64,000 bases of DNA from Psychrobacter immobilis (GTDB lineage Bacteria; Pseudomonadota; Gammaproteobacteria; Pseudomonadales; Moraxellaceae). Where the stretch lies: positions 1 through 64,000 of the forward strand of contig NZ_CAJGZJ010000003.1 of the NCBI RefSeq assembly GCF_904846225.1. The letters are read 5' to 3'. A model generated the notes under the pieces. That model made no database searches and was not told the origin of the DNA. It saw nothing but the letters and a program-made list of their open reading frames with translations. Both the position numbers and the translations under genes were made by a program. Shown here piece after piece: positions 57,739-64,000 of the stretch (position 1 is the first letter of the stretch; every line of letters starts with the position of its first letter).

Positions 57739-58986
57739 TTAGTTAGAAAAACGCTGTGCGCTAAACGGCGCAATATCAACCAATAATGGTTTATCATGAA
57801 TCATCTCTTCTACGATACGTCCTGTCATAGGACCTAGCGTGAAGCCCTGATGACTGTGACCAAAAGCGAACCACAGTTTGTCATGCTTGTCTGCAGGACC
57901 AATCACGGGCTTCATATCAGGCATGCAAGGACGTGATCCAGCCCATGCCTCACTTTCTACCGCATCTTCTAGTGGTAAGATTTTACGAGCCAGCTTTAAT
58001 ACGGTTTTTAATTGGCCAAAGTTCTTTGGTGCATCCATTGTGGTCATCTCAGCACCAGTTGTAATGCGAATACCCTGCTGCATTGGCCCCATAACGAAAC
58101 CTTTATCCATGTCAAACATGCTGTGATTAATCGTGTTTTTTTCAGTCACTTTAAAGTGCTGATGGTAGCCGCGCATTGGGAATAAAGGCAAATCATAGCC
58201 GAGTGGTTTGATCAAGTCATTAGACCAAGGACCCGCAGCAATCACCAATTTATCACTATAATAAGTGTCATTATCAGTGATCACTTTCCAGCCATTTTCT
58301 TCCTGTACAATTTCTTTGACGCCGCTTTCTTTAAGCGTCCCACCTAGTTCTTGGAAGTTTTTTGCATAAGCTTTGACAAGCGAGCTTGGATTGGAGACTT
58401 GCCAAGAGTTTAACCAATGAATCGCGCCAACGAAACCATCAAAATTCGCGCTTGGCTCCATTACTTTTAATTCTTCTACTGTCAATACATTGTGCTCGAC
58501 GCCCTGATCGCGGTCTTTGATTGCGGCAGCAATAGCTACGTTCAGAGTCTCTTCAGAACGATGTAGCTGCAACCAGCCTTTTCGACTGATCAAATCTTCA
58601 GCACCAGATGCGGTAATCATCGTTTGATGCTCACTGGTACAATGCTCAATCAGCGTCTGCCACTCTGCTTCTATTTTTTTGACAGAGGCAGGTGTAGAGT
58701 ATTTCCAGTACTTCAAAAGCGCTTGATGATAACGCAAAATCGCTGGTATACGATAGCGAATATCAGTCCCTTGGTTGGGCAATACTCTGATCATTTCAGT
58801 CAACTGACGCGGGAACGGATGCGTGTGAATCGCTTCGCGCTGAATGAGGCCTGCATTACCATAAGAGGTCTCTGACCCTGGTAGTTTCTTGTCTAACAGC
58901 AATACTTGTGAATTGTTTTTTTGTAAATGCCACGCAACTGACGTGCCAACCATGCCTGCACCGATAACGATAACTTCATAGCGCAT
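57739..58986 (-). CDS. FAD-dependent D-amino-acid dehydrogenase-like oxidoreductase
   Basis: The 415-residue protein has an N-terminal FAD-binding Rossmann motif, VIVIGAGMVGTSVAWHLQK, and LLLDKKLPGSETSYGNAGLIQ, as in DadA, plus MKPVIGPADKHDKLWFAFGH and HQGFTLGPMTGRIVEEM near the C-terminus. DadA-type enzymes oxidise amino acids to imines/2-oxo acids and feed electrons to the respiratory chain. No membrane helix is present beyond the N-terminal hydrophobic FAD motif. Substrate cannot be told; the RidA-like gene downstream fits a role in amino-acid catabolism. Confidence 0.88.
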   Translation of the reverse strand: MRYEVIVIGAGMVGTSVAWHLQKNNSQVLLLDKKLPGSETSYGNAGLIQREAIHTHPFPRQLTEMIRVLPNQGTDIRYRIPAILRYHQALLKYWKYSTPASVKKIEAEWQTLIEHCTSEHQTMITASGAEDLISRKGWLQLHRSEETLNVAIAAAIKDRDQGVEHNVLTVEELKVMEPSANFDGFVGAIHWLNSWQVSNPSSLVKAYAKNFQELGGTLKESGVKEIVQEENGWKVITDNDTYYSDKLVIAAGPWSNDLIKPLGYDLPLFPMRGYHQHFKVTEKNTINHSMFDMDKGFVMGPMQQGIRITTGAEMTTMDAPKNFGQLKTVLKLARKILPLEDAVESEAWAGSRPCMPDMKPVIGPADKHDKLWFAFGHSHQGFTLGPMTGRIVEEMIHDKPLLVDIAPFSAQRFSN

Positions 58987-59300: not shown

Positions 59301-61628
59301 TTATTTGTAGTCAACCTCTCTTTCAAATAATAGCTGCAACCAGTCACTGAGACCATCAATATCAAAGGTTTTTGCACCATAACCAATATTTAGTAAATCC
59401 TCAGGCAAATACTTATCGAACTTTTCAATCATTTTATTCGGTACATTTTCAGCAAGCTTAGTCGCAGACGGCATAGGCTCATGAGCTAAAGTTTGCAAGA
59501 ACCTCATAACCTGAACTGAATTAACTTTGTTAATACATATCACACCAGCATACCTCTCAGTAGAGAAATCATGTTGTATCAGCAGAGCTGCCAAGGTGTT
59601 GACAACTTTATCACCACGCCACATAAAGATATAAGTATTACCGTCTTGGTCTATAAGAGGTCGATGACGTAATTGACATCTATCAAAAGTTTCAATACTT
59701 TCTTTGAATAGCTCGCGCGCTGTTTTATCAGCGAAATCGACTTTTTTATCGCCAACTGAAATACGGTAATTGCCACTGCTTAATATGTCATACATCTCTT
59801 GACGCACTCGGTCGTGTATCGACATATCTCCGTCGCCATCAAAATTTGGAGGCTGACCGCCACCTTGGACAGCGCTCACATAAATGACCTTTTTATCCAT
59901 ATCGATATCTTTGACTTGCCAGCGTATACCAGCGAAGATGATGTATTGTTCGGGTAGCAGCAGAGTAGTAACGGGTAATGTGCCCAGTGTTTTACTACCA
60001 GCCACAAGACGATATTCTTCTGGCGTCTTAAACACCGCATAAAAAGTATAATGACCAACGATACGCTCGCCTACTATCCCTAACACTAATTGCTGATTAC
60101 CAAGCTGGGTAATCAGTTGCATCGCGCCCATTTGTAATAATAAGGATTTAAAATGAGTAGGTGTTATCTTTTGAAAAGAACCTTGCCTACATAGCAAAGT
60201 ATAAATTTGATCGGCACGGATACCGCCCCATTGACCAATGGTTGCGAGCACTTGATGAAGGAGCGTTGAGAAGTGATAAAGCGACGTGTCCGCAGGCTCA
60301 AACCATCTGCTAGCGATAAGCAGTCTTATCATTGCTAATGACTGAATAAGCTCTAAGCGTAGCCTATCCACTAAATTGGTATTCACATCGATTTCTTCTT
60401 CCGTTATAAGCATACGTAGCACTGATGAACCGCCGCGCCTACCCGAGCGCCCAAGCCGTTGCCTTAAGCTTGAAACTGAATGCGGAGCGGTAACCTGCAC
60501 GACAGAATCGACTTTACCAATATCTATACCTAGCTCCAAAGTCATCGTGCAGACGGCAGTCGTTGGCAGATTATCCTTTTGCAAACGCTGCTCTAAACCT
60601 TCTCTCAACTCTTTTGCTAATGAGCCGTGATGAGGGAAAAACTCATTTGGAACGATGTTTTGCTCACATTTCTCACTTAGCAATGTGGCTATAAGCTCGG
60701 TACGTTTACGGCTATTGGCAAAGATAAGATGGTTACCGCCACGGCAGAAGCGATACAAATCCGTGCATATTTGTGATTGAGCATCATAGGAAATCTCAAA
60801 ATTACTGCTCTCAATAATGGCACTCTCTAAACCAATACCTGTAAACCTTTCTTCTTCAGTTTTATTACTTTCATAGTCAGTCTCAATACCATCGATTTGT
60901 ACCATTTGCATTATCTGACTAGGTTCTATATAACCTTTTAGCTGAACTTTAACGTTTGATGTCGATTCAGTGTCTTTAATAATGACGCAAGGTAAAGAAT
61001 GATTAGGGCGTAGCGATAAAGGCACAGTTTCTATATTTCCCAAAGTGGCGCTTAGTGCGACTCTAGGAATAGGCGTCTCTAACCGCCCAGCCACATGCTC
61101 AAGGCGATTCAACAGCGACAATAAATGCTGTCCGCGCTCACTACCCAAAAACGCATGAAACTCATCAATGACAATATATTTCAAATCGCCAAAAGCTTGT
61201 TTTACCCAGCCTGCATCTCTTATCAATAAGGATTCAAGTGATTCAGGAGTAATCAAAATAATCCCTGAGGGTGACTTTTTCTGTTGTTTCTTTTTACTTA
61301 ACGGACTGTCGCCATGCCATGGAGTCAATTGCATATCGAGTAGCTCCGCTAGACTTTGCAAGCGTCGATACTGGTCATTAATCAACGCTTTTAACGGACT
61401 GATATAAAGAATGCCAACGCCCTTTTCTTGATGAGCAATAGCGCTACAAGCAGGCAAGAAGAAAGCTTCTGTTTTACCCGCAGCCGTTGCCGCGCTGATA
61501 AGCACATCCGTTTGCCCTGATAAAATGGGCGCAATGGCTTTGGCTTGTACTTCGCGCAGTCCGTGCCAGCCTTGGTTAAAAACCCAGCGTTGCACGCGTT
61601 TATCAAGCTCGATATGGGCATCTCTCAA
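59301..61628 (-). CDS. sngC: Lhr-like DExH helicase of a Shango-type defence operon (SngC-like)
   Basis: The 775-residue superfamily 2 helicase has motif I SAATAAGKTEA near residue 45, motif Ia SPLKALIND, motif II DEFH near residue 152, motif III SATLGN near residue 198 and motif VI QRLGRSGRRGG near residue 400. The C-terminal part after residue 420 resembles the WH/DUF regions of Lhr/BrxHI-type proteins. The start is TTG at 61628, after an AGGACGG site; no in-frame ATG lies near. It begins 33 bp after the ATPase gene. Assignment as SngC rests on gene order. Confidence 0.88.
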   Translation of the reverse strand: MRDAHIELDKRVQRWVFNQGWHGLREVQAKAIAPILSGQTDVLISAATAAGKTEAFFLPACSAIAHQEKGVGILYISPLKALINDQYRRLQSLAELLDMQLTPWHGDSPLSKKKQQKKSPSGIILITPESLESLLIRDAGWVKQAFGDLKYIVIDEFHAFLGSERGQHLLSLLNRLEHVAGRLETPIPRVALSATLGNIETVPLSLRPNHSLPCVIIKDTESTSNVKVQLKGYIEPSQIMQMVQIDGIETDYESNKTEEERFTGIGLESAIIESSNFEISYDAQSQICTDLYRFCRGGNHLIFANSRKRTELIATLLSEKCEQNIVPNEFFPHHGSLAKELREGLEQRLQKDNLPTTAVCTMTLELGIDIGKVDSVVQVTAPHSVSSLRQRLGRSGRRGGSSVLRMLITEEEIDVNTNLVDRLRLELIQSLAMIRLLIASRWFEPADTSLYHFSTLLHQVLATIGQWGGIRADQIYTLLCRQGSFQKITPTHFKSLLLQMGAMQLITQLGNQQLVLGIVGERIVGHYTFYAVFKTPEEYRLVAGSKTLGTLPVTTLLLPEQYIIFAGIRWQVKDIDMDKKVIYVSAVQGGGQPPNFDGDGDMSIHDRVRQEMYDILSSGNYRISVGDKKVDFADKTARELFKESIETFDRCQLRHRPLIDQDGNTYIFMWRGDKVVNTLAALLIQHDFSTERYAGVICINKVNSVQVMRFLQTLAHEPMPSATKLAENVPNKMIEKFDKYLPEDLLNIGYGAKTFDIDGLSDWLQLLFEREVDYK

Positions 61629-61661
61629 AGTAATTTTCCGTCCTAAAATTAAGTGTCAAAC

Positions 61662-62975
61662 TTATAAGCTAAAGTCTGCAAGTCCATCATCTTCATCAAC
61701 ATCGCTCATATCGATATCCATATCGGAGGGCGTCTCAGGATCGATAGCTACCGAATTGATTAGATGATCCCATGAGATAGTAGGATTTTGGTCGATGACG
61801 GCCAGCATATCCAAAAACGCCTTGATGGTATTGCGCGGCGTTCTAAAGTAAGCATCGCCAATCGTCTGGCTACAATGTTGCAAAAAAGCTTGTAGTGATT
61901 CATCAGGTACAAGATAAGCAGTCTCATCACCGCCTGCATAAACATGACGTAGGTTTTTGAGTAAGATATAAAGCTCCTCTGGCGTTAAGCTGGCTAAATG
62001 TAGAGCAGGAGAAGAATAATCAATCACTCCTGCTTTTTTAGCAAAGCTATTATCCGCCAAACGCGTTTGCAGGGCATCATAGCTGTATAACCCTTTGCGC
62101 GGATCGAGTAAAAACTCAGGAGTACCGCCTAATAAAAACCCTAAATGCTCAGCCGTTCCTTGTAAACAATCATTTAGGATACGCAAAATTTGCTCATAGT
62201 TGCCTTGACGCGCTTGCGTGCTATTGAGCTTATATAAATTTACCATTTCATCCAAATTAACGAGCAGTCCTTGATAACCGGCATGGCGCACGAATAAACT
62301 CATGATTTTTAATGAGTCGTAGAAGGAAGCATCAGAGATAATTGTGCGCACACCCAGATCACGTTTCGCGTCGGTCTTAGTAGTATATTCTGCCCGCAGC
62401 CAGCGAATAGCGTTAACTTTTAGCTCGTCATTGCCTTCTTCGTGTCCTTGCCAATAAGCCTCAATAACTTTGGCAAAATCATAGCCGCCTACAAGTTCAG
62501 TCAGCTCCGTTAAATTGTGCTGGATAACGTCACTAATCGCCTCCCCACTGCTATCCGCTTGTTTGCGGGCCTCAGTAATAAAACGCTCAACCACACTAGC
62601 AAGACCATTACCATCAGGCTTATTACGCGTCGATAAATTACGCATCAGCTCAGAATATAAATTTCTTGCTTGCCCTGATGACGCTTGGATACGTCTATCA
62701 GGTGATAAATCGGCATTAACGGTGACCAATTTACGCTCAAGGGCAATGGCGCGAACTACGCTTAAGAAAAAAGTCTTGCCTGAACCATATTCGCCAATAA
62801 TCAGCCGAAAGGCAGAGCCACCGTCAGCCACACGTTCAATATCGTCTATCAAGGCTTTGAGCTCGTTAATACGTCCGACTTGGATGTGCTGAATACCAAC
62901 TTTAGGAGTCACGCCAGACTTGAGCGACTGGATAATTGCATCACGCTCTTTGGCTCTGATTTTTTTAACGCTCAT
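61662..62975 (-). CDS. sngB: BrxD-like P-loop ATPase of a Shango-type defence operon (SngB-like)
   Basis: The 437-residue AAA-type ATPase has Walker A GEYGSGKTFFLS near residue 61 and Walker B LLVNLDEM near residue 244, matching the BREX-type (DUF2791/BrxD) ATP-binding domain. A GIQHIQVGRINELKAL segment precedes the P-loop and an acidic tail (DIDMSDVDEDDGLADF) closes the protein. AAGGGAA precedes its ATG by seven bases. It lies between the TerB-type gene (23-bp gap) and the helicase gene, and probably works with both. BrxD-like ATPases also occur in BREX types; no pglX or pglZ gene is here. Confidence 0.88.
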   Translation of the reverse strand: MSVKKIRAKERDAIIQSLKSGVTPKVGIQHIQVGRINELKALIDDIERVADGGSAFRLIIGEYGSGKTFFLSVVRAIALERKLVTVNADLSPDRRIQASSGQARNLYSELMRNLSTRNKPDGNGLASVVERFITEARKQADSSGEAISDVIQHNLTELTELVGGYDFAKVIEAYWQGHEEGNDELKVNAIRWLRAEYTTKTDAKRDLGVRTIISDASFYDSLKIMSLFVRHAGYQGLLVNLDEMVNLYKLNSTQARQGNYEQILRILNDCLQGTAEHLGFLLGGTPEFLLDPRKGLYSYDALQTRLADNSFAKKAGVIDYSSPALHLASLTPEELYILLKNLRHVYAGGDETAYLVPDESLQAFLQHCSQTIGDAYFRTPRNTIKAFLDMLAVIDQNPTISWDHLINSVAIDPETPSDMDIDMSDVDEDDGLADFSL

Positions 62976-62998
62976 ATTTATTCCCTTTATTTACTGTT

Positions 62999-64000
62999 TT
63001 ATTGACTGAAAGCTTTTAGCTCTTCTACAATCTCAAAATCGACTATGACTTCATCATCATCTTCTAATACAGGCGCATCGACGTTTTCATATGCCCAATC
63101 GTTAATAGTTTCAATGGCGCCATTTATCATTAGGTTAAGCGACTCGCATAATACGTTAACAGCTTCACGTTGCCATACCTCAGCACTAATAAGCTGATGA
63201 TATAATTGGCTATGACTACTATCTAAGCCATCTATGGTCGGCTTGTTATCTGAGTTTTCAATAAGCACATTACTCTGCTGATCAGTCGCCGTCTGATTAA
63301 TTATCTCTAAGGTTTCATTTTCTTCTGACTCATCCTCTACGGCAAAAATGCTGCTTAGCATCGCTTTAGCTACTGCTGTCTCGCGTTCATGTAGGGCTAA
63401 TAGTTCAGCGTCAAAACTAAATAAGGTGCTGTTTTTGCTGCTATTATCTTTGGCTTGAGGCGCATTATTTATGCCCGTGTTTACTTTTTTATTCGTCGTC
63501 AACTGATGGATATCACTAGTCACTAACGTTTTATCTAAACCTAAAGCTTGATATAGCTTTTCGATTTGTTTAATTTGACTGGGTTCGATATTACCATTCG
63601 CTAAGGCAACCGTAATAATGAAACGGCTGATAAAACCAATATATTGCTCATCAAGAGTAGCCAATGTTGACTTTAGACCCGCCATATTTGCTGGAGTGTT
63701 TAATTGCCATAGCAAATAAGCTCTAAGCGAGTCTTTTTCAATAGTGCTCAGCTGACTGTCTTCATTGAGCAGCGTCAATAAGGTGTCCACTTCCCTTTTA
63801 TCAACATAGCCATTAATAGTCGCTACCATGGCGCCCAGCCTCATGGCTAAACCGACTTGATAGAAAGATGAACTGGGCTTAAACTCTTCACTAAACGCAT
63901 CATAACCACCAGCAAATAACACAGCGTAACCATCTGATTGCAAGCGCGTCTGATGATAACGTTGGTCAGGAGCAATACCAAAACCGGCAAGCTCTAGCAG
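62999..64000 (-). CDS. sngA: TerB-domain protein of a Shango-type defence operon, cut by window edge (SngA-like)
   Basis: The reading frame is open to the last base of the window, so the gene starts outside it; an internal TTG at 63943 is not the true start. The 334 visible residues carry a TerB-type helical domain (GAMVATINGYVDKREVDTLLTLL and ALANGNIEPSQIKQIEKLYQALG) and a C-terminal region like TerB-C, with W-Q-REAV and an acidic end (LEDDDEVIVDFEIVEEL). TerB domains bind metal through acidic residues. The gene is first of the operon in transcription order. Shango's SngA is the TerB-domain component. Confidence 0.82.
   Translation of the reverse strand: MLELAGFGIAPDQRYHQTRLQSDGYAVLFAGGYDAFSEEFKPSSSFYQVGLAMRLGAMVATINGYVDKREVDTLLTLLNEDSQLSTIEKDSLRAYLLWQLNTPANMAGLKSTLATLDEQYIGFISRFIITVALANGNIEPSQIKQIEKLYQALGLDKTLVTSDIHQLTTNKKVNTGINNAPQAKDNSSKNSTLFSFDAELLALHERETAVAKAMLSSIFAVEDESEENETLEIINQTATDQQSNVLIENSDNKPTIDGLDSSHSQLYHQLISAEVWQREAVNVLCESLNLMINGAIETINDWAYENVDAPVLEDDDEVIVDFEIVEELKAFSQ

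Follow-up and report, generated by a model that had tools for sequence, protein, structure and literature searches.

A complete, intact-looking Shango operon in Psychrobacter immobilis and the conserved C-terminal peptide of its predicted ATPase SngB

The window analysed here is the first 64,000 bases (positions 1-64000) of a Psychrobacter immobilis contig 299,753 bases long (NZ_CAJGZJ010000003.1), and its right edge carries the genes of Shango (sngABC), an anti-phage system reportedly described by Millman et al. in 2022. The genes sngA, sngB and sngC follow one another in this order on a single strand, with intergenic gaps of 23 bp (sngA-sngB) and 33 bp (sngB-sngC) (Table 1). As sngA runs across the edge, the contig past position 64000 was also examined; this extension, proposed in a first-pass annotation of the window, recovered the start of the gene. 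Judged from its sequence, the locus is a complete, intact-looking chromosomal Shango system. SngB contains GEYGSGKT (residue 61) and LLVNLDE (residue 237), its Walker A and B motifs, and SngC contains ATAAGKT (47), DEFH (155), SAT (193) and QRLGRSGR (390), helicase motifs I, II, III and VI; the catalytic motifs of both predicted proteins are intact.

The first-pass annotation had recognised a TerB-domain protein, a BrxD-like ATPase and an Lhr-like helicase, spaced as above, and had read them as the Shango gene set; the open reading frames (ORFs) and the database matches agree on both counts. Among the PADLOC-DB models, SngA matches the SngA model (6.7e-90, residues 48-794) and no other, SngB matches the SngB model (8.2e-185, residues 1-436) and SngC the SngC model (9.2e-263, residues 7-765). 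Pfam places TerB_N (4.7e-35) and TerB_C (2.6e-27), both over the cut-off, in SngA, BrxC_BrxD (5.9e-150) in SngB and DEAD (9.4e-35) in SngC. SngB and SngC have homologues in the BrxD and BrxHI proteins of bacteriophage exclusion (BREX) systems, which is the point in favour of a partial or divergent BREX locus, or one of the defence island system associated with restriction-modification (DISARM), an alternative also raised in the first-pass annotation. This alternative is hardly credible. In PADLOC, both proteins score several hundred bits higher with the Shango models than with their BREX counterparts (613 for SngB versus 150 for BrxD; 872 for SngC versus 386 for BrxHI/BrxHII), SngB reaches 148 bits against the NCBIfam model BREX_BrxD, below its cut-off of 350, and the NCBIfam scan returned no model matching SngA. 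A whole-genome search for PglZ (PF08665) gave no match, the same search being positive in two of 14 control genomes, and the sole TerB_N protein and sole BrxC/D-family protein (PF10923) of the genome are the SngA and SngB of this locus, with no second BrxC-type large ATPase. A BREX identity is ruled out by the absence of PglZ and the presence of TerB_N and TerB_C. No DISARM gene (drmA, drmB, drmC or the methyltransferase) was recognised in the ORFs up to 34 kb past the window, whose translations were read without hidden Markov model scans, and SngC matches the DrmA model at 1.5e-10 only. The flanking ORFs look like housekeeping genes (read by eye, three of them by Pfam). The system is therefore assigned to Shango, not BREX, because PADLOC, Pfam and NCBIfam agree, PglZ is missing and the genome holds no TerB_N or BrxC/D protein beyond this locus.

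Table 1. Coordinates of the Shango locus, its parts and the neighbouring genes discussed in the text (window or contig positions, unless a locus handle precedes them)
Feature	Position	Strand	Description
sngA	62999-65392 on the contig (window part 62999..64000)	minus	797 aa, ATG start
sngA, window part	62999..64000	minus	3' part, encoding SngA from about residue 465 to residue 797 with the TerB fold and TerB_C
sngB	61662..62975	minus	437 aa, ATG start; predicted ORC/Cdc6-like AAA+ ATPase related to BrxD
sngC	59301..61628	minus	775 aa, predicted Lhr/Ski2-like superfamily 2 (SF2) helicase; TTG start at 61626-61628
SngB variable acidic linker, codons	61689..61736	minus	residues 414-429; from per-position entropy and charge over 88 loci
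SngB conserved C-terminal peptide, codons	61665..61688	minus	residues 430-437, DGLADFSL; 88/88 loci; synonymous codons vary
dadA-like FAD (flavin adenine dinucleotide)-dependent oxidoreductase	57739..58986	minus	flank, outside the system; backbone gene of the genus that bounds the variable interval here; Pfam DAO 2.1e-64
Exonuclease-BRCT genes, second Psychrobacter clade	L058:2139-3011, L061:14281-15153, L062:13978-14844, L063:14425-15291, L064:4942-5811, L060:6081-6770		internal stop in the genome of L060

Shango is a known system, and the fresh detail of the present copy is the strongly conserved tail of SngB, which is shared family-wide. Within the genus, SngB is carried by 17 of 105 Psychrobacter genomes, all 17 with the full triad. 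Scanning genome contigs gave 107 relatives, and the 80 best of these were analysed; most come from Gammaproteobacteria, a few records carrying other labels. Nine of the 80 duplicate Psychrobacter copies of the genus set, so that the two sets together comprise 88 distinct loci, 71 of them outside Psychrobacter. The order sngA-sngB-sngC on one strand holds in 17/17 genus loci and 80/80 scan loci. Broken genes occur in a few: sngC is split into two ORFs at L053 and L111, and sngA is in two pieces at L133 and L158 and short at L155. At one further genus locus (L062:1209-11419), sngC lies 6.4 kb from sngB, and the insert encodes RidA (75% identical to the RidA of the window) and a distant DadA-like protein (26%).

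In 85/85 triples compared with the window copy (L053 and L133 dropped for their broken genes), SngB is better conserved than SngA and SngC, with median identities of 42.4% (SngA), 77.8% (SngB) and 60.1% (SngC). Because SngB served to select the loci, these percentages carry a bias as absolute values, which affects the ranking less. This ranking fits a hub role for SngB. Measured up to the first possible start, the sngB-sngC distance is -4 bp, an overlap as expected of interacting products, in 63 of the 71 non-Psychrobacter loci. The Psychrobacter copies differ in being usually gapped (24-67 bp in 13 of 16, the others at -44, 3 and 6437 bp). SngB also occurs on plasmids: 684 PLSDB records, L222 and L223 among them, contain SngB at E 1e-20 (451 Klebsiella, 144 Salmonella), 542 of them predicted conjugative, and the three inspected all have the full triad. 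At the DNA level, 479 of 5426 E. coli genomes match the sngB of the Klebsiella plasmid, and the phage records gave no SngB match.

The acidic tail noted on SngB in the first-pass annotation is present, and it is followed by a conserved C-terminal peptide in all 88 loci. Position -3 is F in 88 and position -1 is L in 87 and I in one, with L in 83 and F in five at -6, and D in 79 at -8. Positions -9 to -36, by contrast with this peptide, differ widely between loci (entropy 2.0-3.3 bits) and are mostly acidic, and the last 32 residues carry a net charge of -5 to -13 (mean -9.0). Conserved SngB stretches served to collect these 88 loci, which are for that reason close relatives (about 74% identity or more). 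Among nine divergent SngB proteins at 55-63% identity (L194-L199, L201, L217, L224), L-x-x-[F/L/V]-x-[L/I] is kept in 9/9, exactly C-terminal in seven and followed by one extra residue in two (L199, L201).

Conservation of the tail could in principle reflect no more than a ribosome-binding site for sngC within the sngB sequence. This explanation was ruled out: codons at the conserved positions vary synonymously, Leu(-6) being written with all six codons, and the motif is kept in 16/16 loci with a sngB-sngC gap of at least 20 bp, which are not 16 independent cases (14 Psychrobacter and two Enterovibrio metagenome-assembled genomes). Selection therefore acts at the protein level, given the synonymous variation and the persistence of the motif where the two genes do not overlap. 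At a separate locus (L203:2-2451), two adjacent ORFs encode distant SngB/BrxD-like ATPases (about 24% identity to SngB) that lack the tail; they were not counted as Shango, the short L203 stretch containing no SngA or SngC match.

The SngB tail probably grips a partner protein. For the system as a whole, we give about an even chance to a Shango in which SngB loads or activates SngC through this tail and SngA serves for sensing or scaffolding. Here SngB, as an ORC/Cdc6-like AAA+ protein, would load the helicase SngC (SF2) onto phage DNA or onto replication intermediates, or activate it there, the acidic linker of SngB ending in a short hydrophobic peptide that would dock on a partner, most likely SngC. 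SngA, with its TerB_N, TerB and winged-helix-like TerB_C parts, would sense the invader or scaffold the complex, and the motor action of SngC would stall phage DNA replication or expose phage DNA to host nucleases. No nuclease domain was recognised in SngA, SngB or SngC, which is why the block may come from the SngC motor or from host nucleases. A narrower formulation is more doubtful, although we regard it as a serious possibility: the C-terminal peptide (acidic linker, then D-G-L-x-[D/N]-F-x-L) may be an undescribed motif that docks an AAA+ protein to a helicase, Shango would load or gate its helicase on phage DNA by this means, and the BrxD-BrxHI pair would use a shorter version.

In the published record, SngC has been grouped with BrxHI, DruE and DpdJ (PMC12278908), and BrxD has been proposed as the loader or activator of BrxHI (PMC12839542). 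A 2026 review lists the mechanism of Shango as unknown (PMC12926258); the literature searched, in which few papers name SngA, SngB or SngC, yielded no mechanistic Shango paper, and no description of the SngB tail was found in a search that ran without preprint servers and most subscription journals. In PAO1, the Shango of PA14 lowered plating 10- to 100-fold for many of the phages tested, though not for all, and a copy from E. coli is reported to have an effect of about 10-fold on two phages (PMC10250203).

Several points weigh against the loading of SngC by SngB through the tail. The helicase-loader role of SngB is proposed by analogy, the docking partner of the tail is putative, and a nuclease could lie unrecognised in SngA or come from the host. 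The reported protection is modest and does not extend to all phages, and the activity of the window copy is predicted only. The 88 tails come from close relatives and the divergent SngB proteins number only nine. The predicted SngB model (mean predicted local distance difference test score, pLDDT, 57.2; predicted template modelling score 0.39) is too poor to show whether the tail is disordered. Finally, the BREX counterpart does not have the same tail: BrxD ends in NDIELNL-like or VDDIDL peptides without an acidic linker, as seen in five of the six loci that pass the cut-off, two of which have identical tails, and in one further locus, which points to a resemblance, not to the same motif.

This last observation bears on where the tail docks. 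A less likely reading keeps Shango but lets the tail dock on SngA, or on a neighbouring SngB protomer, making SngB the switch of a sensor-motor assembly. SngA is the other invariant partner in all loci, and BREX, which has no SngA, has a BrxD without the acidic linker and the L-x-x-F-x-L spacing; the full tail could thus be specific to the SngA-containing system. BrxD nevertheless still ends in acidic residues and hydrophobics, and the helicase would be the sole partner shared by type 2 BREX and Shango, both of which argue for SngC over SngA. The peptide offers a simple experimental handle: it is kept in 88/88 loci on the slowest-evolving protein of the system, and one deletion would probe the wiring between ATPase and partner, likewise for BrxD in BREX.

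Ter-linked helicase gene clusters were reportedly predicted by comparative genomics by Anantharaman et al. in 2012. The present operon likewise places a TerB_N/TerB_C protein beside helicase and ATPase genes, and we take Shango to be a later-tested defence system with the make-up of those predicted clusters. The idea is cited in PMC10250203 (Johnson et al. 2023), whose Shango consists of the same three proteins with the same domains. Both the P. aeruginosa Shango and the window copy are stand-alone operons in a variable chromosomal site, cDHS1 in the former (PMC10250203), but the window copy lies in a different host genus and at a different site. In type 2 BREX, homologous AAA+ ATPase and SF2 helicase genes, those of BrxD and BrxHI, are also neighbours (PMC12839542). 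SngB and SngC are 23-25% and 29-32% identical to this pair, respectively. Unlike type 2 BREX, the window genome has neither PglZ nor BrxC, Shango has a TerB protein instead, and SngB adds the acidic linker and C-terminal L-x-x-F-x-L.

Structurally, SngA was assessed by AlphaFold2 modelling of an orthologue with 95% identity (locus L108, 46-sequence alignment, mean pLDDT 79.0). In a second-look alignment of this model, residues 498-643 align with the TerB protein of COG3793, 2ou3 (Z 9.8, root-mean-square deviation 4.5, 136 residues aligned), and the same region aligns with 2h5n (Z 9.2). Under this aligner, Z scores below about 13 for helical domains, or below 8 in general, may reflect a common arrangement only; the TerB match is accepted because the top chain, 2ou3, is itself a TerB-family protein. 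The TerB domain assigned to SngA by the first-pass annotation thus stands at the level of predicted fold and does not stand in Pfam, where TerB (PF05099) scores a non-significant E=0.16. Many winged-helix domains (MukF, MotA and MarR types) match residues 713-797, at a middling Z of 5-6. The acidic tail that had also been ascribed to SngA is ruled out on the model, its C-terminus lying in this folded, winged-helix-like TerB_C domain (pLDDT block means of 83-96 over residues 721-797). Foldseek returned no match to the SngA model at E 0.001 or better. By sequence, no solved relative of SngA or SngB was found at E 0.01; for SngC there are related helicases, among them YprA and Lhr-type proteins.

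The TTG start proposed for sngC is borne out, as the next in-frame Met of the window copy lies 98 codons on, past Walker A. In the genus, TTG behind a purine-rich stretch is found in 15/15 copies with the RDAH start region (L053, which is split, and L066, which has no such region, are left out), and the next Met follows 64-112 codons on. This sets the Psychrobacter copies apart from the other 71 loci, where the first ORF start of sngC is ATG in 67, GTG in three and off the end in one. Of the features that the first-pass annotation had put forward as possibly specific details, the SngB tail therefore proves family-wide and the TTG start genus-wide, and the SngA tail falls away.

The chromosomal site of the operon is variable. 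A UvrD-like helicase gene of 726 codons, which belongs to the genus core, lies 118 bp upstream of sngA on the same strand, followed by ychF (named from its translation) on the other strand, and dadA lies on the far side. The position of the UvrD-like gene is the genomic argument for a further reading of the tail, which we consider improbable, namely that SngB mimics the C-terminal peptide of single-stranded DNA-binding protein (SSB) and recruits host SSB-binding repair proteins, such as the UvrD-like helicase or exonucleases, to phage DNA. SSB tails resemble the SngB tail in that acidic residues lead into a hydrophobic C-terminus, but the SSB peptide ends in Pro-Phe, whereas the last three residues of SngB are F-x-L. 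Moreover, 89 of 105 Psychrobacter genomes have the UvrD-like gene, only 12 of them with Shango (adjoining in seven), and the gene is missing at E 1e-150 from five of the 17 Shango genomes; the 71 non-Psychrobacter loci contain only two distant UvrD-like ORFs in the stretch, neither adjoining Shango. Its genus-wide presence and its lack in 5/17 Shango genomes likewise rule out the UvrD-like helicase as a fourth Shango gene.

Forty-eight UvrD-like loci, picked for enough downstream contig, were examined (seven with Shango adjoining, four with Shango elsewhere, 37 without Shango), and both flanks, the UvrD-like gene and dadA, were found at 44. Counting ORFs of 100 residues or more, the 44 intervals contain Shango (7), a gene for a protein of about 1550 residues (13), VgrG-type genes (2) or small and other ORFs (7), and 15 are empty (intervals below 500 bp). 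The varied contents, from Shango through helicase/nuclease and VgrG genes to nothing, indicate that the uvrD-dadA interval serves conflict genes as a small chromosomal hotspot and is hence a place to look for new Psychrobacter defence genes. By eye, the insert starts right after the UvrD-like stop codon and ends at a dadA leader common to the empty sites, with no integrase or repeat seen at its edges. All seven copies at the site share a conserved block upstream of sngA that includes TGnTAGAAT, which resembles an extended -10 element. The operon may have its own promoter, although this is weakly supported, as the whole scan gave 36 promoter-like sites versus 25.3 (standard deviation 5.7) in shuffles.

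The commonest gene at the site (13/44) encodes the helicase/nuclease, with products of 1534-1571 residues that are 73-100% identical to the copy at L080 (L080:11045-15688); the latter combines AAA_11/AAA_12 helicase (superfamily 1) and MTES_1575 nuclease domains and matches PDC-S37, a candidate defence model of PADLOC, at 8.9e-64. The VgrG-type (type VI secretion) genes lie at L078:4397-7384 and L079:10036-15413, in L079 with a LysM-muramidase protein, and a related VgrG-type gene (L071:9156-10916) stands beside a 1554-residue gene.

In a second Psychrobacter clade, a different neighbour is found: six of the 17 genus loci carry a DEDD exonuclease-BRCT gene 37-52 bp upstream of sngA (Table 1; domains scanned in three of the six). 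A homologue with 62-65% identity is encoded elsewhere in 11 genus genomes, including the source genome of the window (G000:C5:124880-125755), the one place of the 11 that was inspected, where no Shango gene is near. The exonuclease-BRCT neighbour fits a DNA-processing role for Shango.

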